From Treponema sp. UBA4326 (GTDB lineage: Bacteria; Spirochaetota; Spirochaetia; Treponematales; Treponemataceae), in NCBI GenBank assembly GCA_002393835.1, contig DGTW01000224.1, forward strand, positions 1-12,041: 12,041 nucleotides of DNA. The letters run 5' to 3'. Position 1 is the first letter of the stretch; each line of letters begins with the position of its first letter. A program made the position numbers and the translations under genes. Below are positions 966 through 8,539 of the stretch, piece by piece. The notes under the pieces were generated by a model. That model saw nothing but the letters and a program-made list of their open reading frames with translations. It did not search any database and was not told the origin of the DNA.

Positions 966-1679
966 CTACTCTATTGTCTGAGGATATTTTTCGCTTATCC
1001 AGCGGGCAAGGTATACGAACGGTGTATCTGCCAGGGATGTTACTATAAATATTGCATATCCAAAGATCAAAACTTCAACTAAAGTTTGTGCCGGGAATAC
1101 TCCTGCAAAGGCTGCAAGGTTAAATACAACTACGTTTATCAGCTGGCTCACAAGTGTAGAACCGTTGTTTCTGAGCCAGAGACGGGCCTTGTGGCTGCCT
1201 GTCTTTTTTTCTGACCAGTTCCATAGAGCGTGGTATGCCCATACATCATAAAGTTCACACAATGCATAGGCTGCAAGGCTTGAAAGCATTACCCTCGGTG
1301 TTGAGGCAAAAACCGTGCGTACCGGACCTGCCATTGTATCTCCTGCTGCAGGTACATACAAAAACCATGACTGGCTTATGATGATAAAGGTTATGTTTGT
1401 CAGGATTCCGATTTTAACGCATTTTGATGCTTCTTTTTTTCCGAAGACTTCGCTCATAATGTCGGTTGCAAGAAAGCTTGATGCAAAAAGTACGTTTCCC
1501 AAAGTCGTATCAAGTCCGAAGGCGTGTACGAGAATGAGCACTTCAATGTTTGCAGCAATCGTACAGATTACCGTCCAGGAATAGATTCCGGTTTTCCCGA
1601 AAAAACGGAAAAAGGCTACGAGTCCTCCGAAAAACACGAGGATGCTCGCGATTAATATTATTTCATTCTGAAAAGGCAT
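966..1679 (-). CDS. yhhQ: Queuosine precursor transporter (YhhQ/COG1738 family)
   Basis: This 237-residue integral membrane protein has about six hydrophobic segments, the usual size for the YhhQ family that imports the 7-deazaguanines preQ0/preQ1. Family signatures visible are ASSFLATDIMSEVFGKKEA (about residues 66-84), ELYDVWAYHALWNW (about 142-155) and LWLRNNGSTLVSQLIN. The last of these carries the conserved Asn-Asn and Ser/Gln residues thought to contact the substrate. The ATG at 1679 is preceded by GTGGAGT at a good distance. It lies 18 bases after the stop of queF on the same strand, so the two genes are very probably one transcript. The pairing implies that imported preQ0 is reduced to preQ1 for tRNA modification. 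It could also carry preQ1 directly, and specificity cannot be read from sequence. Confidence 0.9.
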   Translation of the reverse strand: MPFQNEIILIASILVFFGGLVAFFRFFGKTGIYSWTVICTIAANIEVLILVHAFGLDTTLGNVLFASSFLATDIMSEVFGKKEASKCVKIGILTNITFIIISQSWFLYVPAAGDTMAGPVRTVFASTPRVMLSSLAAYALCELYDVWAYHALWNWSEKKTGSHKARLWLRNNGSTLVSQLINVVVFNLAAFAGVFPAQTLVEVLIFGYAIFIVTSLADTPFVYLARWISEKYPQTIE

Positions 1680-1697: not shown

Positions 1698-2183
1698 TTA
1701 GTTCCAGCTGCGGCGGTCGATGCTTGCAAAGAGACGCTGTTTCTGAAGGGCTTCGTATTCAGTTCCTTTTTTGCCGTAGTTTGCAAAAGGATAGATTGAG
1801 ATTCCGCCCCTCGGGGTAAAGATTCCTTCTACTTCAAGGTATTTTGGGTCGAGGAGGGCAACGAGGTCTTTCATGATGATGTTTGCGCAGTCTTCATGAA
1901 AATCTCCGTGGTTACGGAAGCTGAACAGATAGAGTTTTAATGATTTGGACTCTACGAGGAAGAGGTCAGGAATGTAGTTAATCCTGATTTCTGCAAAGTC
2001 CGGCTGGCCTGTTTTAGGACACAGGGATGTGAATTCCGGGCAGTTAAGCATTACCATGTAATCGTTGTCCGGATGTTTGTTCGGAAATTTTTCAAGAATT
2101 TCCGGTGAGTAGTCGTAGGTGTAAGCGGTTTTCTGGTTTCCCAGCAGGCTTACGCCTTCGAGCTCGTCTTTTGTACGGCTCAT
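1698..2183 (-). CDS. queF: NADPH-dependent 7-cyano-7-deazaguanine reductase QueF (short, type I)
   Basis: QueF reduces the nitrile of preQ0 to the aminomethyl group of preQ1, which TGT then inserts into tRNA on the way to queuosine. With the start at 2183 the protein is 161 residues and the key residues fall at the Bacillus subtilis numbers. These are nucleophile Cys55 (in [10 protein letters not shown]), Asp62, and substrate-binding His96-Glu97 (in [10 protein letters not shown]). The QueF motif is [16 protein letters not shown] at about 78-93. I prefer the ATG at 2183 over the in-frame ATG at 2246 for three reasons: GGAG (2191-2194) sits correctly before 2183, the family begins here, and the upstream stretch is explained by a regulatory hairpin. 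It is first in a two-gene unit with the YhhQ transporter and is probably controlled at translation by preQ1. Confidence 0.95.
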
Positions 2184-2190
2184 AGTTATT

Positions 2191-2229
2191 CTCCATAGTT
2201 TTGATAAGGCGGGATGGTTTCGAACCGCC
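2191..2229 (-). promoter_or_regulatory. Candidate class I preQ1 riboswitch in the queF leader
   Basis: On the minus strand a 5-bp stem GGCGG (2225-2229) / CCGCC (2208-2212) closes a 12-base loop UUCGAAACCAUC. An A-rich tail UUAUCAAAACUAUGGAG (2191-2207) follows. The preQ1-I aptamer has exactly this plan: 5-bp P1, a 12-base loop starting UUC and ending C in the Bacillus form, then an A-rich tail ending CUAAGG, or UUAACAAAACAAGG in the Thermoanaerobacter form. Here loop CCAU can pair with tail AUGG to form the pseudoknot. That tail contains the GGAG ribosome binding site of queF, so ligand binding should hide it (translational OFF). Family layout is established knowledge; the match and pairing are seen here; function is inferred. 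Confidence 0.72.
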
Positions 2230-5028: not shown

Positions 5029-6033
5029 ATGAACTTAAAGAACGGAATGCAAGAAATCCCGATTTTTTTTGCCATCGACGATAATTATGCTCCTTTTTTT
5101 GCAGTTGCACTTACTTCGCTTCTTGATAATGCCTCAAAGAAATTTTTCTATAAAATATATGTGCTTACTACAAGCCTTCGTAAGGAATATGCGGACAGGC
5201 TTCGTCTGGTTGTTGACGACCTGGCCCTTGACAATGCCAGCATTGATTTTGTCTCAATGAAAGACGAAATGGAAAAATCAACTGGTGCTTTTCACCTGCG
5301 TCATTATTACTCAAAGGAAACCTATTGCCGTATCTTTATCCCCAGAGTTTTCAAGCAGTATGACAAAGTGCTCTACCTGGACAGCGACATTGTGGTAACA
5401 GGAGACATTTCCCAGCTTTTCAACACTGATTTGGGCGATAACCTTGTGGCCGCCGCCAGTGAAGAAGTAATGACTGACTACGAGGTTTACGGAAACTATG
5501 TCGAGAAGGCCCTTGGCATATATCGCTACGACTATTTCAGTGCAGGAGTCCTTTTGATTAACGCAAGGCTTTACAGGGAAGAGGATATCGAAACTAAATT
5601 CATAGACCTTCTCAATTCATTTACCTTCCGGGTTACACAGGACGAAGATTATCTCAATGTTCTCTGCAAGGGAAGGGTAAAGCCCCTGAGCTTGGGCTGG
5701 AACAAGTCTGCCTACAAGAATCCATCTTTTGACGACAAGAATCTCAAGCTGATTCACTATAAAATCAACTGGAAACCCTGGCACTACGACAATGTCCTTT
5801 ACGAAGATTATTTCTGGAAATATGCAAAAGAGACCTTCCTTTATGATTCAATCCTCAAAATAAAGGCCTCATACACCGAAGATTTGATTGAAAGGGACAG
5901 GCAGCAGTTCAATGAGCTGGTCAAAATGGCTGAAGAAGATTCGGCAGATCCTAACAACTACTGGAATACCCGGCAGCGTAAAACCGGCGAAACTTTAGTA
6001 AAGCGGGGCTTGTATGGCGGAAAATCAAACTGA
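5029..6033 (+). CDS. GT8-family glycosyltransferase (LgtC/RfaJ-like)
   Basis: This 334-residue cytoplasmic, membrane-associated retaining glycosyltransferase would transfer a hexose from a nucleotide sugar, probably UDP-Glc or UDP-Gal, to a glycolipid. The GT8 fold begins at IPIFFAIDDNYAPFFAVAL (about residues 10-28). The metal-binding DxD is DSD at 118-120 in KVLYLDSDIVVTGDI. FSAGVLLINARLY (about 170-182) is the acceptor-side block. HYKINWKPWH (243-252) matches the C-terminal HxxGxxKPWH motif whose His completes the Mn site. The ATG at 5029 has no ribosome binding site but lies at the predicted transcript start. An in-frame ATG at 5047 is possible, though its upstream site is weak. It is the first gene of four overlapping genes. 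Sugar and acceptor cannot be told from sequence. Confidence 0.9.
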   Translation: MNLKNGMQEIPIFFAIDDNYAPFFAVALTSLLDNASKKFFYKIYVLTTSLRKEYADRLRLVVDDLALDNASIDFVSMKDEMEKSTGAFHLRHYYSKETYCRIFIPRVFKQYDKVLYLDSDIVVTGDISQLFNTDLGDNLVAAASEEVMTDYEVYGNYVEKALGIYRYDYFSAGVLLINARLYREEDIETKFIDLLNSFTFRVTQDEDYLNVLCKGRVKPLSLGWNKSAYKNPSFDDKNLKLIHYKINWKPWHYDNVLYEDYFWKYAKETFLYDSILKIKASYTEDLIERDRQQFNELVKMAEEDSADPNNYWNTRQRKTGETLVKRGLYGGKSN

Positions 6034-6892
6034 ATCAAATAATATGCCGGCTAAGGAGCCAGCCAAAGCTCCCTCTCGCCTGGCAATAGTCGAGAAAATC
6101 GCGCTCTTTGAGAAAGAAGGCCGCTGGCATGAGGATGTTGAGGACGATCCTCCAACTATTCCCCTCACGCCGGATAAGGTTGACTACCTTAACGAAAAGC
6201 TTTCCAGCAAATTCTGGATGAAATTCGCCAATATGCTGGCCCGCCGCCACATAAACAAGCTCATAAAAAGCAAGGCCCTTATTATCAAGGAAGTCTTAGG
6301 CCTTGAAAATTACATTGCAAACAAGAATGTGGGAGCCGTAATTACCTGCAATCACTTCAATGCCTTCGATAATTTTGCCGTCTATAAGGCAATCGAAAAG
6401 CATGTCTACCACAGGGAGCTGGTGAAGGTCTGCCGGGAAGGCAATTACACCAATTTTCCTGGCTTTTACGGCTTTCTTTTCCGCCACTGCAACACCATGC
6501 CGCTTTCAAGCAATGTCTCCACCATGAAGAAATTCATGGATGCGGCAAAGTATTACATTTCACACGGCAGGCAGATTCTTATCTACGCCGAGCAGGCCAT
6601 GTGGTGGAACTACCGCAAGCCCCGTCCCCTTACCAACGGAGCCTACAAAATTGCGGCCGAGAACAAGGCGCCTGTCATGCCTTTTTTCATCACCATGAGC
6701 GATTCTCCCATAACTGGTGGTGACGGCTTCCCGGTCCAGGAATATACCATTCATATATTGCCGCTCATTTACCCGAAAGAGGAGCTGAGCGTCAGACAAA
6801 ACGCCGAATACATGAAGAATGCCAACTTTGAGGCCTGGAAGAAGGTCTATGAGGAAACTTATGGCATTCCCCTGACCTACGGGACGGAATAG
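6014..6892 (+). CDS. PlsC-like lysophospholipid/glycolipid acyltransferase (first)
   Basis: This 292-residue protein has the 1-acylglycerol-3-phosphate acyltransferase fold. Block I is NHFNAFD at 113-119, the catalytic His114-x4-Asp119. Block II lies around FPGFYGFLF...NTMPLS (148-165). Block III is reduced to YAEQ at 191-194, where most relatives have (F)PEG. Block IV is KAPVMPFF at about 218-225. There is no clear membrane span; a hydrophobic/basic patch at 66-86 may dock on the membrane. The N-terminal 25 residues are low-complexity and hydrophilic. The ATG lies 20 bases inside the end of the glycosyltransferase gene, implying translational coupling. It probably acylates a glycolipid or lysolipid made by the neighbouring glycosyltransferases. 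The family assignment is firm and the substrate is inferred. Confidence 0.87.
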   Translation: MAENQTESNNMPAKEPAKAPSRLAIVEKIALFEKEGRWHEDVEDDPPTIPLTPDKVDYLNEKLSSKFWMKFANMLARRHINKLIKSKALIIKEVLGLENYIANKNVGAVITCNHFNAFDNFAVYKAIEKHVYHRELVKVCREGNYTNFPGFYGFLFRHCNTMPLSSNVSTMKKFMDAAKYYISHGRQILIYAEQAMWWNYRKPRPLTNGAYKIAAENKAPVMPFFITMSDSPITGGDGFPVQEYTIHILPLIYPKEELSVRQNAEYMKNANFEAWKKVYEETYGIPLTYGTE

Positions 6893-6894
6893 TG

Positions 6895-7704
6895 ATGTCA
6901 GAAAAAAAGGTCATCTATTACGAGGATGAGCTGAATGACGAGTTTTCAACTATGAAAATCACGCCAATTCCCATCGATGAGCACTATGATTACGGCGGAA
7001 ATTCCTTTTTCTGGCATTTCAGGCGTTTTCTTTTTTACCGTCTCTTTGCCATGCCACTGGCTTTTCTCTACCTAAAGCTCAAGTACCGTCATAAAATCAT
7101 AAACCGGGCCGTGCTGAAGCCCTGGCAGAAGGGAGCCTTCTTCATTTACGGAAATCACACCAACATCCTCTCGGATCCCCTTGTCCCCACCTTCGTGAGC
7201 TTTCCGAAGAGCGTTTTTGTGGTCGTGCATCCCAACAATGTCTCAATTCCCCATATTGGTCAGAAAATGCGGCTTTTAGGTGCCCTGCCTCTTCCTGACA
7301 ACTTTGCCGCTGCAAAAAATTTCATGCGCACTATGGAAATGCGGGTAAAGGCAAAATGCTCTGTCTGCATTTACCCGGAAGCCCACATCTGGCCTTTTTA
7401 CACTAAAATCAGGCCTTTTCCAGACACATCGTTCAAATATCCTGTGCAGTACAAAATTCCGGCCTTTTGCTTCACCAATGTCTATCAGAAGCGGCACTTT
7501 TCTAAGAATCCCAGGATGATTACCTATGTGGACGGACCTTTTTTTGCCGACGCCAGCCTTTCTGCAAAGGAGCAGAGAAAGGCCCTGAGGGATGCGGTCT
7601 ATGAAAAAATGTGCCAGAGAAGCCTCCTCAATAATGTTGAGCTAATAAAGTACATCAAGAAAACTGATTCGAAAACAGGCGAAAATGGAGAAAACCATGA
7701 TTAA
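6895..7704 (+). CDS. PlsC-like acyltransferase (second, HX5D variant)
   Basis: This gene encodes 269 residues from the ATG at 6895; a GTG at 6892 overlapping the previous stop is an alternative. It has the acyltransferase blocks, but block I is GNHTNILSDP, so His88 and Asp94 are five residues apart instead of four. Block II is IGQKMRLLGALPLPDN (about 121-136). Block III is IYPEAHIWPFYTKIRPF (about 159-175), with PEA in place of PEG. Block IV is KIPAFCFTNVY. A hydrophobic aromatic stretch at 37-63 could sit in the membrane surface. It is only distantly like the first acyltransferase, so this is probably not a recent tandem duplication. Two acyltransferases side by side would allow two acyl chains, or acyl chains at two positions, to be added to one glycolipid. 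That is inference. Confidence 0.87.
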   Translation: MSEKKVIYYEDELNDEFSTMKITPIPIDEHYDYGGNSFFWHFRRFLFYRLFAMPLAFLYLKLKYRHKIINRAVLKPWQKGAFFIYGNHTNILSDPLVPTFVSFPKSVFVVVHPNNVSIPHIGQKMRLLGALPLPDNFAAAKNFMRTMEMRVKAKCSVCIYPEAHIWPFYTKIRPFPDTSFKYPVQYKIPAFCFTNVYQKRHFSKNPRMITYVDGPFFADASLSAKEQRKALRDAVYEKMCQRSLLNNVELIKYIKKTDSKTGENGENHD

Positions 7705-8539
7705 TGTTCTCTTCTGCGGCAACAGCGGAGTTTTTGACGGTGCCCTTACCACCATGCTTTCAATTTTCAAGCGGACTGAAACAAGGGAGCCTTTTCATTT
7801 CTTCATTCTTACAATGGATGTCTCTCATCTGCGAAGTGATTACACGCCTCTTTCTGACGCTCAGATTGCCTTTCTTGCCGATGTCGCTAAATCTTACAAC
7901 CCAGAAAACATAGTCGAGAAAATCGATGTTACTGCCCTTTACAAGGCTGAATTTGGCGGCTCTCCCAACGAGGACTGCTACTGCTCGCCTTACACGCTGC
8001 TGCGCCTTTTTGCCGACCTTATTCCCCAGATTCCAGAAAAAATCCTTTATCTGGACATAGACCTGCTCTTCAACCGGGACATTACTCTCCTTTATGACAT
8101 GGATATTTCGGATTATGAATATGCCGCCGCCCCCGATCATTACGGAAAGCTGATTCTCTTTTTCCTGCCCCGCTTTATTAACGCCGGTGTCATGCTCTTC
8201 AACATGAAAAAGTGCCGGGAAACAGGCCTTTTTAAAAAGAGCCGGGAGCTTATAAAAACGAAAAAACTTGTTTTTGCCGATGAGAGTGCCCTTGTAAGAA
8301 GCACAAGCAGGCAGCTTAAAATCAGCCAGCGTTTCAATGATCAGAAATTTCTCTACAAAAAGACCGTAATCCGCCATTTTTCAAAAAGGCTTTTCTGGCT
8401 TCCTTACCCGCATACGGCGAACATAAAGCAGTGGCGGGTCACAAAGATTCACAAGGTCTTCGGTTACGAGAATTTCGACGACATACTCTACGAGTACATC
8501 TACCTTAAAAAGAAATTCGAGAAAGATTCTGCCCGCTAA
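7697..8539 (+). CDS. GT8-family glycosyltransferase (second)
   Basis: This gene encodes 280 residues from the ATG at 7697. I chose this start because GGAG (7687-7690) lies six bases upstream and the fold begins at once with MINVLFCGNSGVFDGALTTM. The ATG at 7685 is part of the ribosome binding region. The DxD is DID at 120-122 in KILYLDIDLLFNRDI, and FINAGVMLFNMKKC is the following GT8 block. The C-terminal His motif is less regular (RHFSKRLFWLPY) and the KPWH of the first glycosyltransferase is missing, so donor or metal handling may differ. The start overlaps the second acyltransferase by 8 bases. It is the last gene of the operon; its stop is 3 bases from the stop of the convergent DUF368 gene. 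It would add a second sugar to the same lipid in the simplest model. Confidence 0.88.
   Translation: MINVLFCGNSGVFDGALTTMLSIFKRTETREPFHFFILTMDVSHLRSDYTPLSDAQIAFLADVAKSYNPENIVEKIDVTALYKAEFGGSPNEDCYCSPYTLLRLFADLIPQIPEKILYLDIDLLFNRDITLLYDMDISDYEYAAAPDHYGKLILFFLPRFINAGVMLFNMKKCRETGLFKKSRELIKTKKLVFADESALVRSTSRQLKISQRFNDQKFLYKKTVIRHFSKRLFWLPYPHTANIKQWRVTKIHKVFGYENFDDILYEYIYLKKKFEKDSAR

Follow-up and report, generated by a model that had tools for sequence, protein, structure and literature searches.

The element at positions 2,191 to 2,229, read on the minus strand, is by its sequence an ordinary and well-supported type I preQ1-I riboswitch of an already known kind, carried by a Treponema-like spirochaete. 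PreQ1 is a building block of queuosine, a modified tRNA base, and we consider it very probable, from sequence comparison and by analogy with solved relatives, that this class I, type I riboswitch lowers queF translation when preQ1 is plentiful, perhaps along with translation of the transporter gene behind it. The element matches the type I signature, its P1 stem is conserved with compensatory changes, it lies at the ribosome-binding site, and genes of the pathway follow downstream. An initial annotation of the window, by which we mean the whole 12,041-nucleotide stretch of DNA analysed here, had proposed a class I preQ1 riboswitch over the queF ribosome-binding site, and the type I marks and the conservation described below support that assignment. 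Re-reading the minus strand reproduced the coordinates 2191..2229 exactly, and the five-base-pair stem, the loop length of 12 nt, the A-rich tail and the GGAG are all borne out by the letters. From 5' to 3' the minus strand reads GGCGG-UUCGAAACCAUC-CCGCC-UUAUCAAAA-CUAUGGAG, then 7 nt, then the queF start codon; the parts of the element and the two genes that follow it are given below, numbered after the Carnobacterium antarcticus (Can) type I structure.

2225..2229, minus strand: P1 5' strand GGCGG, the last G being G5 in the Can structure
2213..2224, minus strand: 12-nt loop UUCGAAACCAUC between the P1 strands (U6 2224, U7 2223, C8 2222, G9 2221, A12 2218, U16 2214, C17 2213)
2208..2212, minus strand: P1 3' strand CCGCC, pairing with GGCGG
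2199..2207, minus strand: L3, the A-rich linker UUAUCAAAA, with 2199 as the counterpart of A30
2193..2198, minus strand: tail CUAUGG (C31 2198, U32 2197, A33 2196), with an extra U (2195) between A33 and GG
2191..2194, minus strand: Shine-Dalgarno-like GGAG, 7 nt upstream of the ATG (2183-2181)
1698..2183, minus strand: queF, 161 aa, preQ1 synthase (TIGR03139, E 1.5e-50; PDB 4f8b, E 5.4e-72)
966..1679, minus strand: COG1738-type (yhhQ-like) queuosine precursor transporter (TIGR00697, E 5.5e-47; PF02592, E 1.8e-40)

A small hairpin, GGCU-GUC-AGCC, is also predicted just 5' of P1 (window 2242-2232, minus strand).

Type I members of the preQ1-I class are described as having UC before the P1 3' strand, UU just past the 5' strand and a tail with a conserved C, and types II and III as having AC before the P1 3' strand (PMC11625349). 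Directly before its P1 3' strand the window has UC (U2214 C2213) and not the AC of types II and III, a feature shared by 63 of the 66 elements that could be parsed; UU stands atop the P1 5' strand (U2224 U2223), the tail C is followed by UA (C2198 U2197 A2196), and the G-C pair of P1 that adjoins the pocket is present. Type I is the subtype known to bind two stacked preQ1 molecules, in a pocket made up of U6, U7, U16, C17, A30 and C31 beneath a lid of C8, A12 and U32 (PMC8752633). Every pocket and lid base named in that account is found in the window, the lid bases as C2222, A2218 and U2197. The initial annotation had taken several differing loop bases as the sign of a divergent subtype, which we reject: loop and tail AACUAUGG are letter-identical to those of a Thermoanaerobacterium leader (L094) and fit type I.

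The poor covariance score that had been anticipated for such a subtype was indeed obtained, but divergence is not its cause. The suggested RF00522 run on the minus strand gave 27.8 bits (E 8.3e-4 in a 341-base scan), under the gathering cut-off of 39 bits, and leaders like the window's score equally low. L094 reaches 27.4 bits, and none of eight same-type leaders that come from neither spirochaetes nor Neisseriaceae attains the cut-off (five score 25.0-27.4 and three have no RF00522 match at E <= 1); all three Neisseriaceae leaders do (44.3-53.1). Because a leader with letter-identical loop and tail scores 27.4, the low value is a property of the model rather than of the RNA. A scan of the window at the RF00522 cut-off reported no match, and the element is the best RF00522 match of the whole genome (E 1.7e-3). 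No other Rfam preQ1 model matched positions 2080-2420 up to E 10, where RF00522 and one chance snoRNA match were the only hits. For a test made without the window or its relatives, we built a covariance model, R2, from 11 leaders (alignment A4) in records not labelled as spirochaete, namely Neisseria/Neisseriaceae (3), Blautia (2), Thermoanaerobacterium (2), Agathobaculum, Selenomonadales, Acholeplasmataceae and Inordinaticella. Run on the window's genome, R2 gave the element 41.4 bits (E 1.8e-7) and the runner-up 18 bits (E 0.31); the remaining RF00522 and R2 matches there are weak. Minimum-free-energy folding of the leader was about the same as that of shuffled sequence (z 0.07; 100 of 200 shuffles did equally well), which leaves comparison, not folding energy, as the basis of the case. 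A promoter and terminator scan of 2150-2420 found neither.

Of 117 genomes searched, 18 encode QueF; 12 of these belong to the window's genus, with the window's own counted. The element lies upstream of queF in all 11 readable leaders from these 12 genomes, the leader in G068 being unreadable because its QueF match begins at the start of a contig; in six queF genomes outside the genus, no element was found at E <= 0.01 in a search with stricter filters using model R1. That model was built from all 29 rows of an alignment of leaders (A2) and so was trained on queF leaders of the genus, yet most of these were also read directly. Across the 29 leaders P1 is paired in 98.6% of cells, with two-sided changes in four of its five pairs, so the alignment of related queF leaders that the initial annotation had called for finds the stem kept and compensated. 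Taken jointly, P1 and the P2 helix proposed in that annotation have 31 double-change cells where shuffles have 10.5, and displacing the partners by one to three columns lowers the paired cells from 85% to 36-44%. With R1 the element was found at E <= 0.01 in 43 of the 117 genomes, 18 of which had supplied training rows, and at E <= 0.001 in 30 of a phylum-wide sample of 392 genomes, a set that overlaps the 117; the RF00522 cut-off was reached in none of the 117. Four Treponema-labelled QueF loci are 80-84% identical to the window's, which agrees with the earlier suggestion of a spirochaete host and points to a Treponema-like bacterium; three equally close loci are labelled Fibrobacter succinogenes.

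Some leaders just upstream of queF carry insertions. In five of them (L038, L039, L044, L045 and L043) the start of L3, immediately behind P1, holds an extra hairpin; folding the whole leaders gave z values of -1.39, -2.34, -0.66, 0.30 and -3.71, respectively, so that just L039 and L043 are notable. The labels are Fibrobacter succinogenes for L038 and L039 and Victivallales for L044 and L045, with QueF 75-83% identical to the window's. In a sixth (L041, 1334-1500) element and queF are separated by an insert that contains inverted repeats as well as a short open frame; the element has its own GGAGG-ATG and queF a second, AAGGAG-ATG.

The pairing that closes the fold probably differs from the one originally suggested, in which loop CCAU pairs with tail AUGG. 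The letters can pair in this way in the window, but a conserved P2 made of CCAU/AUGG was rejected: the A-U pair is broken in 22 of the 29 leaders and the outer C-G pair in 15 of 29, a count that hinges on the aligner's gap placement in CUAGG, while the remaining two pairs never vary in the 29 rows. Relatives mostly retain CCAU, and their tails read CUAGG, CUACGG, CUAAGG or CUAUGG. The solved type I fold has an A12-U32 pair, with U16 next to the second ligand, and a C10-G34 contact is suggested for Can (PMC8752633). A Can-like third layer between position 10 and the next tail base was rejected as well, as it pairs in only 5 of 29 rows. The element's place over GGAG would suit a P2 that hides part of the Shine-Dalgarno sequence, but neither the CCAU/AUGG helix nor the position-10 pair is conserved. 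Position 2218 with 2197 makes the A12-U32 pair in the window, and by sequence the data agree with the solved type I fold rather than with a CCAU/AUGG helix.

A sister group of leaders bears on this pair. Alignment A3 holds 30 of the 46 R1 matches, in 28 distinct rows, and pair 12-32 is standard in all 28, in eight of them by a two-sided change. We could parse 66 of 67 elements, of which 35 have A12-U32, 28 have G12-C32 and three have a long loop with C and U by simple counting, for which the register may be off; the parser accepted only elements with UUCG and AC(U/C)A and may have passed over other combinations, and L203 went unparsed. A 15-nt loop, UUCGUUCCUACCAUC, occurs in L173, L175 and L178, before a second kind of transporter. 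The 28 leaders with G12 and C32 (L156-L165, L167-L172, L174, L176, L179, L189, L191-L197 and L204) share the layout GACAG-UUCGnnG-nCCUUC-CUGUC with the tail ACCAGGU; in many cases a second Shine-Dalgarno-like GAGGU follows about 20 nt later. They come from three genera of the family, the window's own and those represented by G421 and G437. All precede yhhQ-like genes, 27 by the resemblance of the first downstream frame and L191 by its letters; the one family-tested member, downstream of L156, matches PF02592 (E 4.5e-39) and TIGR00697 (E 1.2e-42). On a tree of 44 transporters the best topology needs at least two label changes, and a single change is enough in 30% of bootstrap trees, so we count one or two lid-swap events and not 28. 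By these sequences, G12-C32 is a compensatory swap and supports the A12-U32 pair of the solved structure.

The type II riboswitch of Tte has a lid formed by a C7-G11-C30 triple (PMC11625349), and by analogy the G12-C32 leaders may combine a type II-like lid with a two-ligand pocket. We advance as a tentative idea, with the balance of our judgement against it, that the Treponema family has an undescribed branch of two-ligand type I riboswitches in which transporter leaders exchanged A12-U32 for G12-C32, acquiring a type II-like lid, and queF leaders, including the window's, kept the ancestral form. If this is true, two versions of one tiny aptamer would set different preQ1 thresholds, one for synthesis and one for uptake.

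Genes of the queuosine pathway follow the element. The transporter gene begins 18 nt downstream of queF, and the queF-yhhQ order that had been read from the letters was matched by TIGR03139 for queF followed by TIGR00697 for the transporter. Other pathway members found in the window's genome are Tgt, QueA and a QueD-family protein. For QueC, the sole PF06508 match in this genome, which is 74% complete, is weak (27.7 bits, cut-off 22) and falls in a 391-aa frame that is perhaps another member of that superfamily. The first genes 3' of the element in related genomes include queF, several COG1738-type transporters and a homologue of queuine lyase. These downstream genes, together with Tgt, QueA and the QueD-family protein, fit feedback on the synthesis and uptake of queuosine precursors. 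The lyase-like case comprises L136 and L137, where a type I preQ1 element at 1501-1546 precedes a radical-SAM protein similar to queuine lyase QueL; the L136 product matches PDB 6p78 (E 1e-43) and the L137 product begins almost identically. L143 has a type I preQ1 element (1501-1545) before an amidase (PF01425, E 1.2e-84), a single case with no obvious place in the queuosine pathway, and L185, also a single case, has one (1501-1545) before a 2-hydroxyglutaryl-CoA dehydratase-type gene (PF06050, E 2.1e-30). Elsewhere in the window, on the plus strand at 5029-8539, a pair of family 8 glycosyltransferase genes flanks two acyltransferase genes, perhaps a lipid or envelope glycan cluster.

We infer the ligand, the binding of two ligands, the direction of control and the geometry from solved relatives. 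With no ligand, GGAG would be open. When preQ1 is plentiful, two molecules would stack at the P1 end, one recognised by C17, U6 and A30 and the other by U7, C31 and U16, and pairing of A12 with U32 would close the lid; the tail would thereby be drawn into the knot and the adjoining GGAG would become less open to the ribosome. Solved preQ1-I relatives that act on translation incorporate part of the ribosome-binding site into the ligand-bound fold, and expression falls (PMC11625349, PMC8752633). Some relatives have other features after the element: judged by eye, L185 has a tail, CUAAGGUA, able to pair with UACCUUAG, after which comes a run of T, and this perhaps indicates transcriptional control in which preQ1 binding would oppose a terminator. 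A terminator-like G+C stem and T run, again seen by eye, comes directly after the element in L142 (after 1545) and L180 (minus strand, after the element at 2623-2667), a pattern that reads as transcriptional rather than translational control in some relatives.

Three other readings of the element deserve weighing. The one closest to ours keeps a preQ1-I riboswitch with a re-registered pseudoknot, in which the four Watson-Crick pairs of CCAU-AUGG bury the ribosome-binding site in a regular P2 in the window's clade, perhaps with a single ligand. The four pairs can form in the window, G055, G060 and G036, the letters also permit them in G442, G300 and L094, and with a bulged A three pairs (CC-GG and U-A) are possible in the CUAGG rows, where the bases hardly vary. 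We nevertheless regard this arrangement as improbable, given that the A-U pair fails in 22 of 29 leaders, that CCAU is kept whatever base precedes GG, that the type I structure described in PMC8752633 has A12-U32 with U16 by the second ligand, and that the swap to G12/C32 supports the solved fold.

Less probable still is a type I aptamer with a changed ligand, such as preQ0 or queuine, or one that raises expression. In its favour, leaders of this kind in the same genus precede a queuine lyase homologue (L136, and L137 with its near-identical start) and transporters that could carry several precursors, but the preQ1-reading bases of the type I pocket, as given for the solved structure, are all unchanged, and the bound fold in the translation-controlling relatives of PMC11625349 and PMC8752633 lowers rather than raises expression. 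Finally, the letters might reflect no regulatory RNA at all and instead conserved codons of a longer queF, whose frame is open from 2246 to the stop and runs through the element. We rejected the start at 2246, which is unlikely because the QueF N termini of relatives lie at the equivalent of 2183 and because leaders differ from one another by one- or two-base insertions in loop and linker that would break the frame; the element also precedes unrelated genes, and we give this coding explanation almost no weight.

With this assignment a spirochaete genus is among the hosts of type I, the two-ligand riboswitch. At the Rfam cut-off as it now stands the branch goes unseen: none of 117 genomes reaches that score, yet 43 of 117 are recovered by a type I model (E <= 0.01). 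The sister leaders with a swapped lid offer comparative support for A12-U32 as well as a natural variant for testing it. None of the titles listed in our literature search is on spirochaete preQ1 riboswitches, and a 2014 survey of preQ1 riboswitch classes lay outside that search, so we make no claim that spirochaete members are new.

Among the closest known systems is the type I riboswitch of Can (PMC8752633; RF00522). In the features described there, Can has in common with the window a five-base-pair P1 closed by G-C, a 12-nt loop, UU and UC flanking P1, an A-rich L3, the tail C31-U32-A33, the C8/A12/U32 lid and a position over the ribosome-binding site. The window differs in an L3 that is one base longer by the published numbering, in A where Can has C at position 10, in an extra U between A33 and GG, which L094 also has, and in its spirochaete host. 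The CCAUC-type leaders of other phyla (L094 from Thermoanaerobacterium, L102, L106, L065, L078, L069 and L088 from Blautia, and L098) share with the window the loop UUCGnnACCAUC and the tail AACUA(n)GG. These have the P1 GACAG/CUGUC where the window has GGCGG/CCGCC, and they lie up to about 900 bases upstream of queF and not directly before it, as the window's does. Type II riboswitches (Tte, Bsu) have in common the H-type pseudoknot, the preQ1-reading C and the A-rich L3, according to the description in PMC11625349; they have AC before the P1 3' strand and bind one ligand, whereas the window has UC. The type III riboswitch of the E. coli yhhQ leader (PDB 8fza) is likewise very small, placed over the ribosome-binding site and part of the queuosine regulon (PMC10622847). 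As outlined in PMC10622847 and PMC11625349, type III has AC, a short pyrimidine-rich loop and an AAGG tail with a Watson-Crick P2, whereas in the window UC stands in that place, the loop is longer and contains purines, and the tail is CUAUGG.
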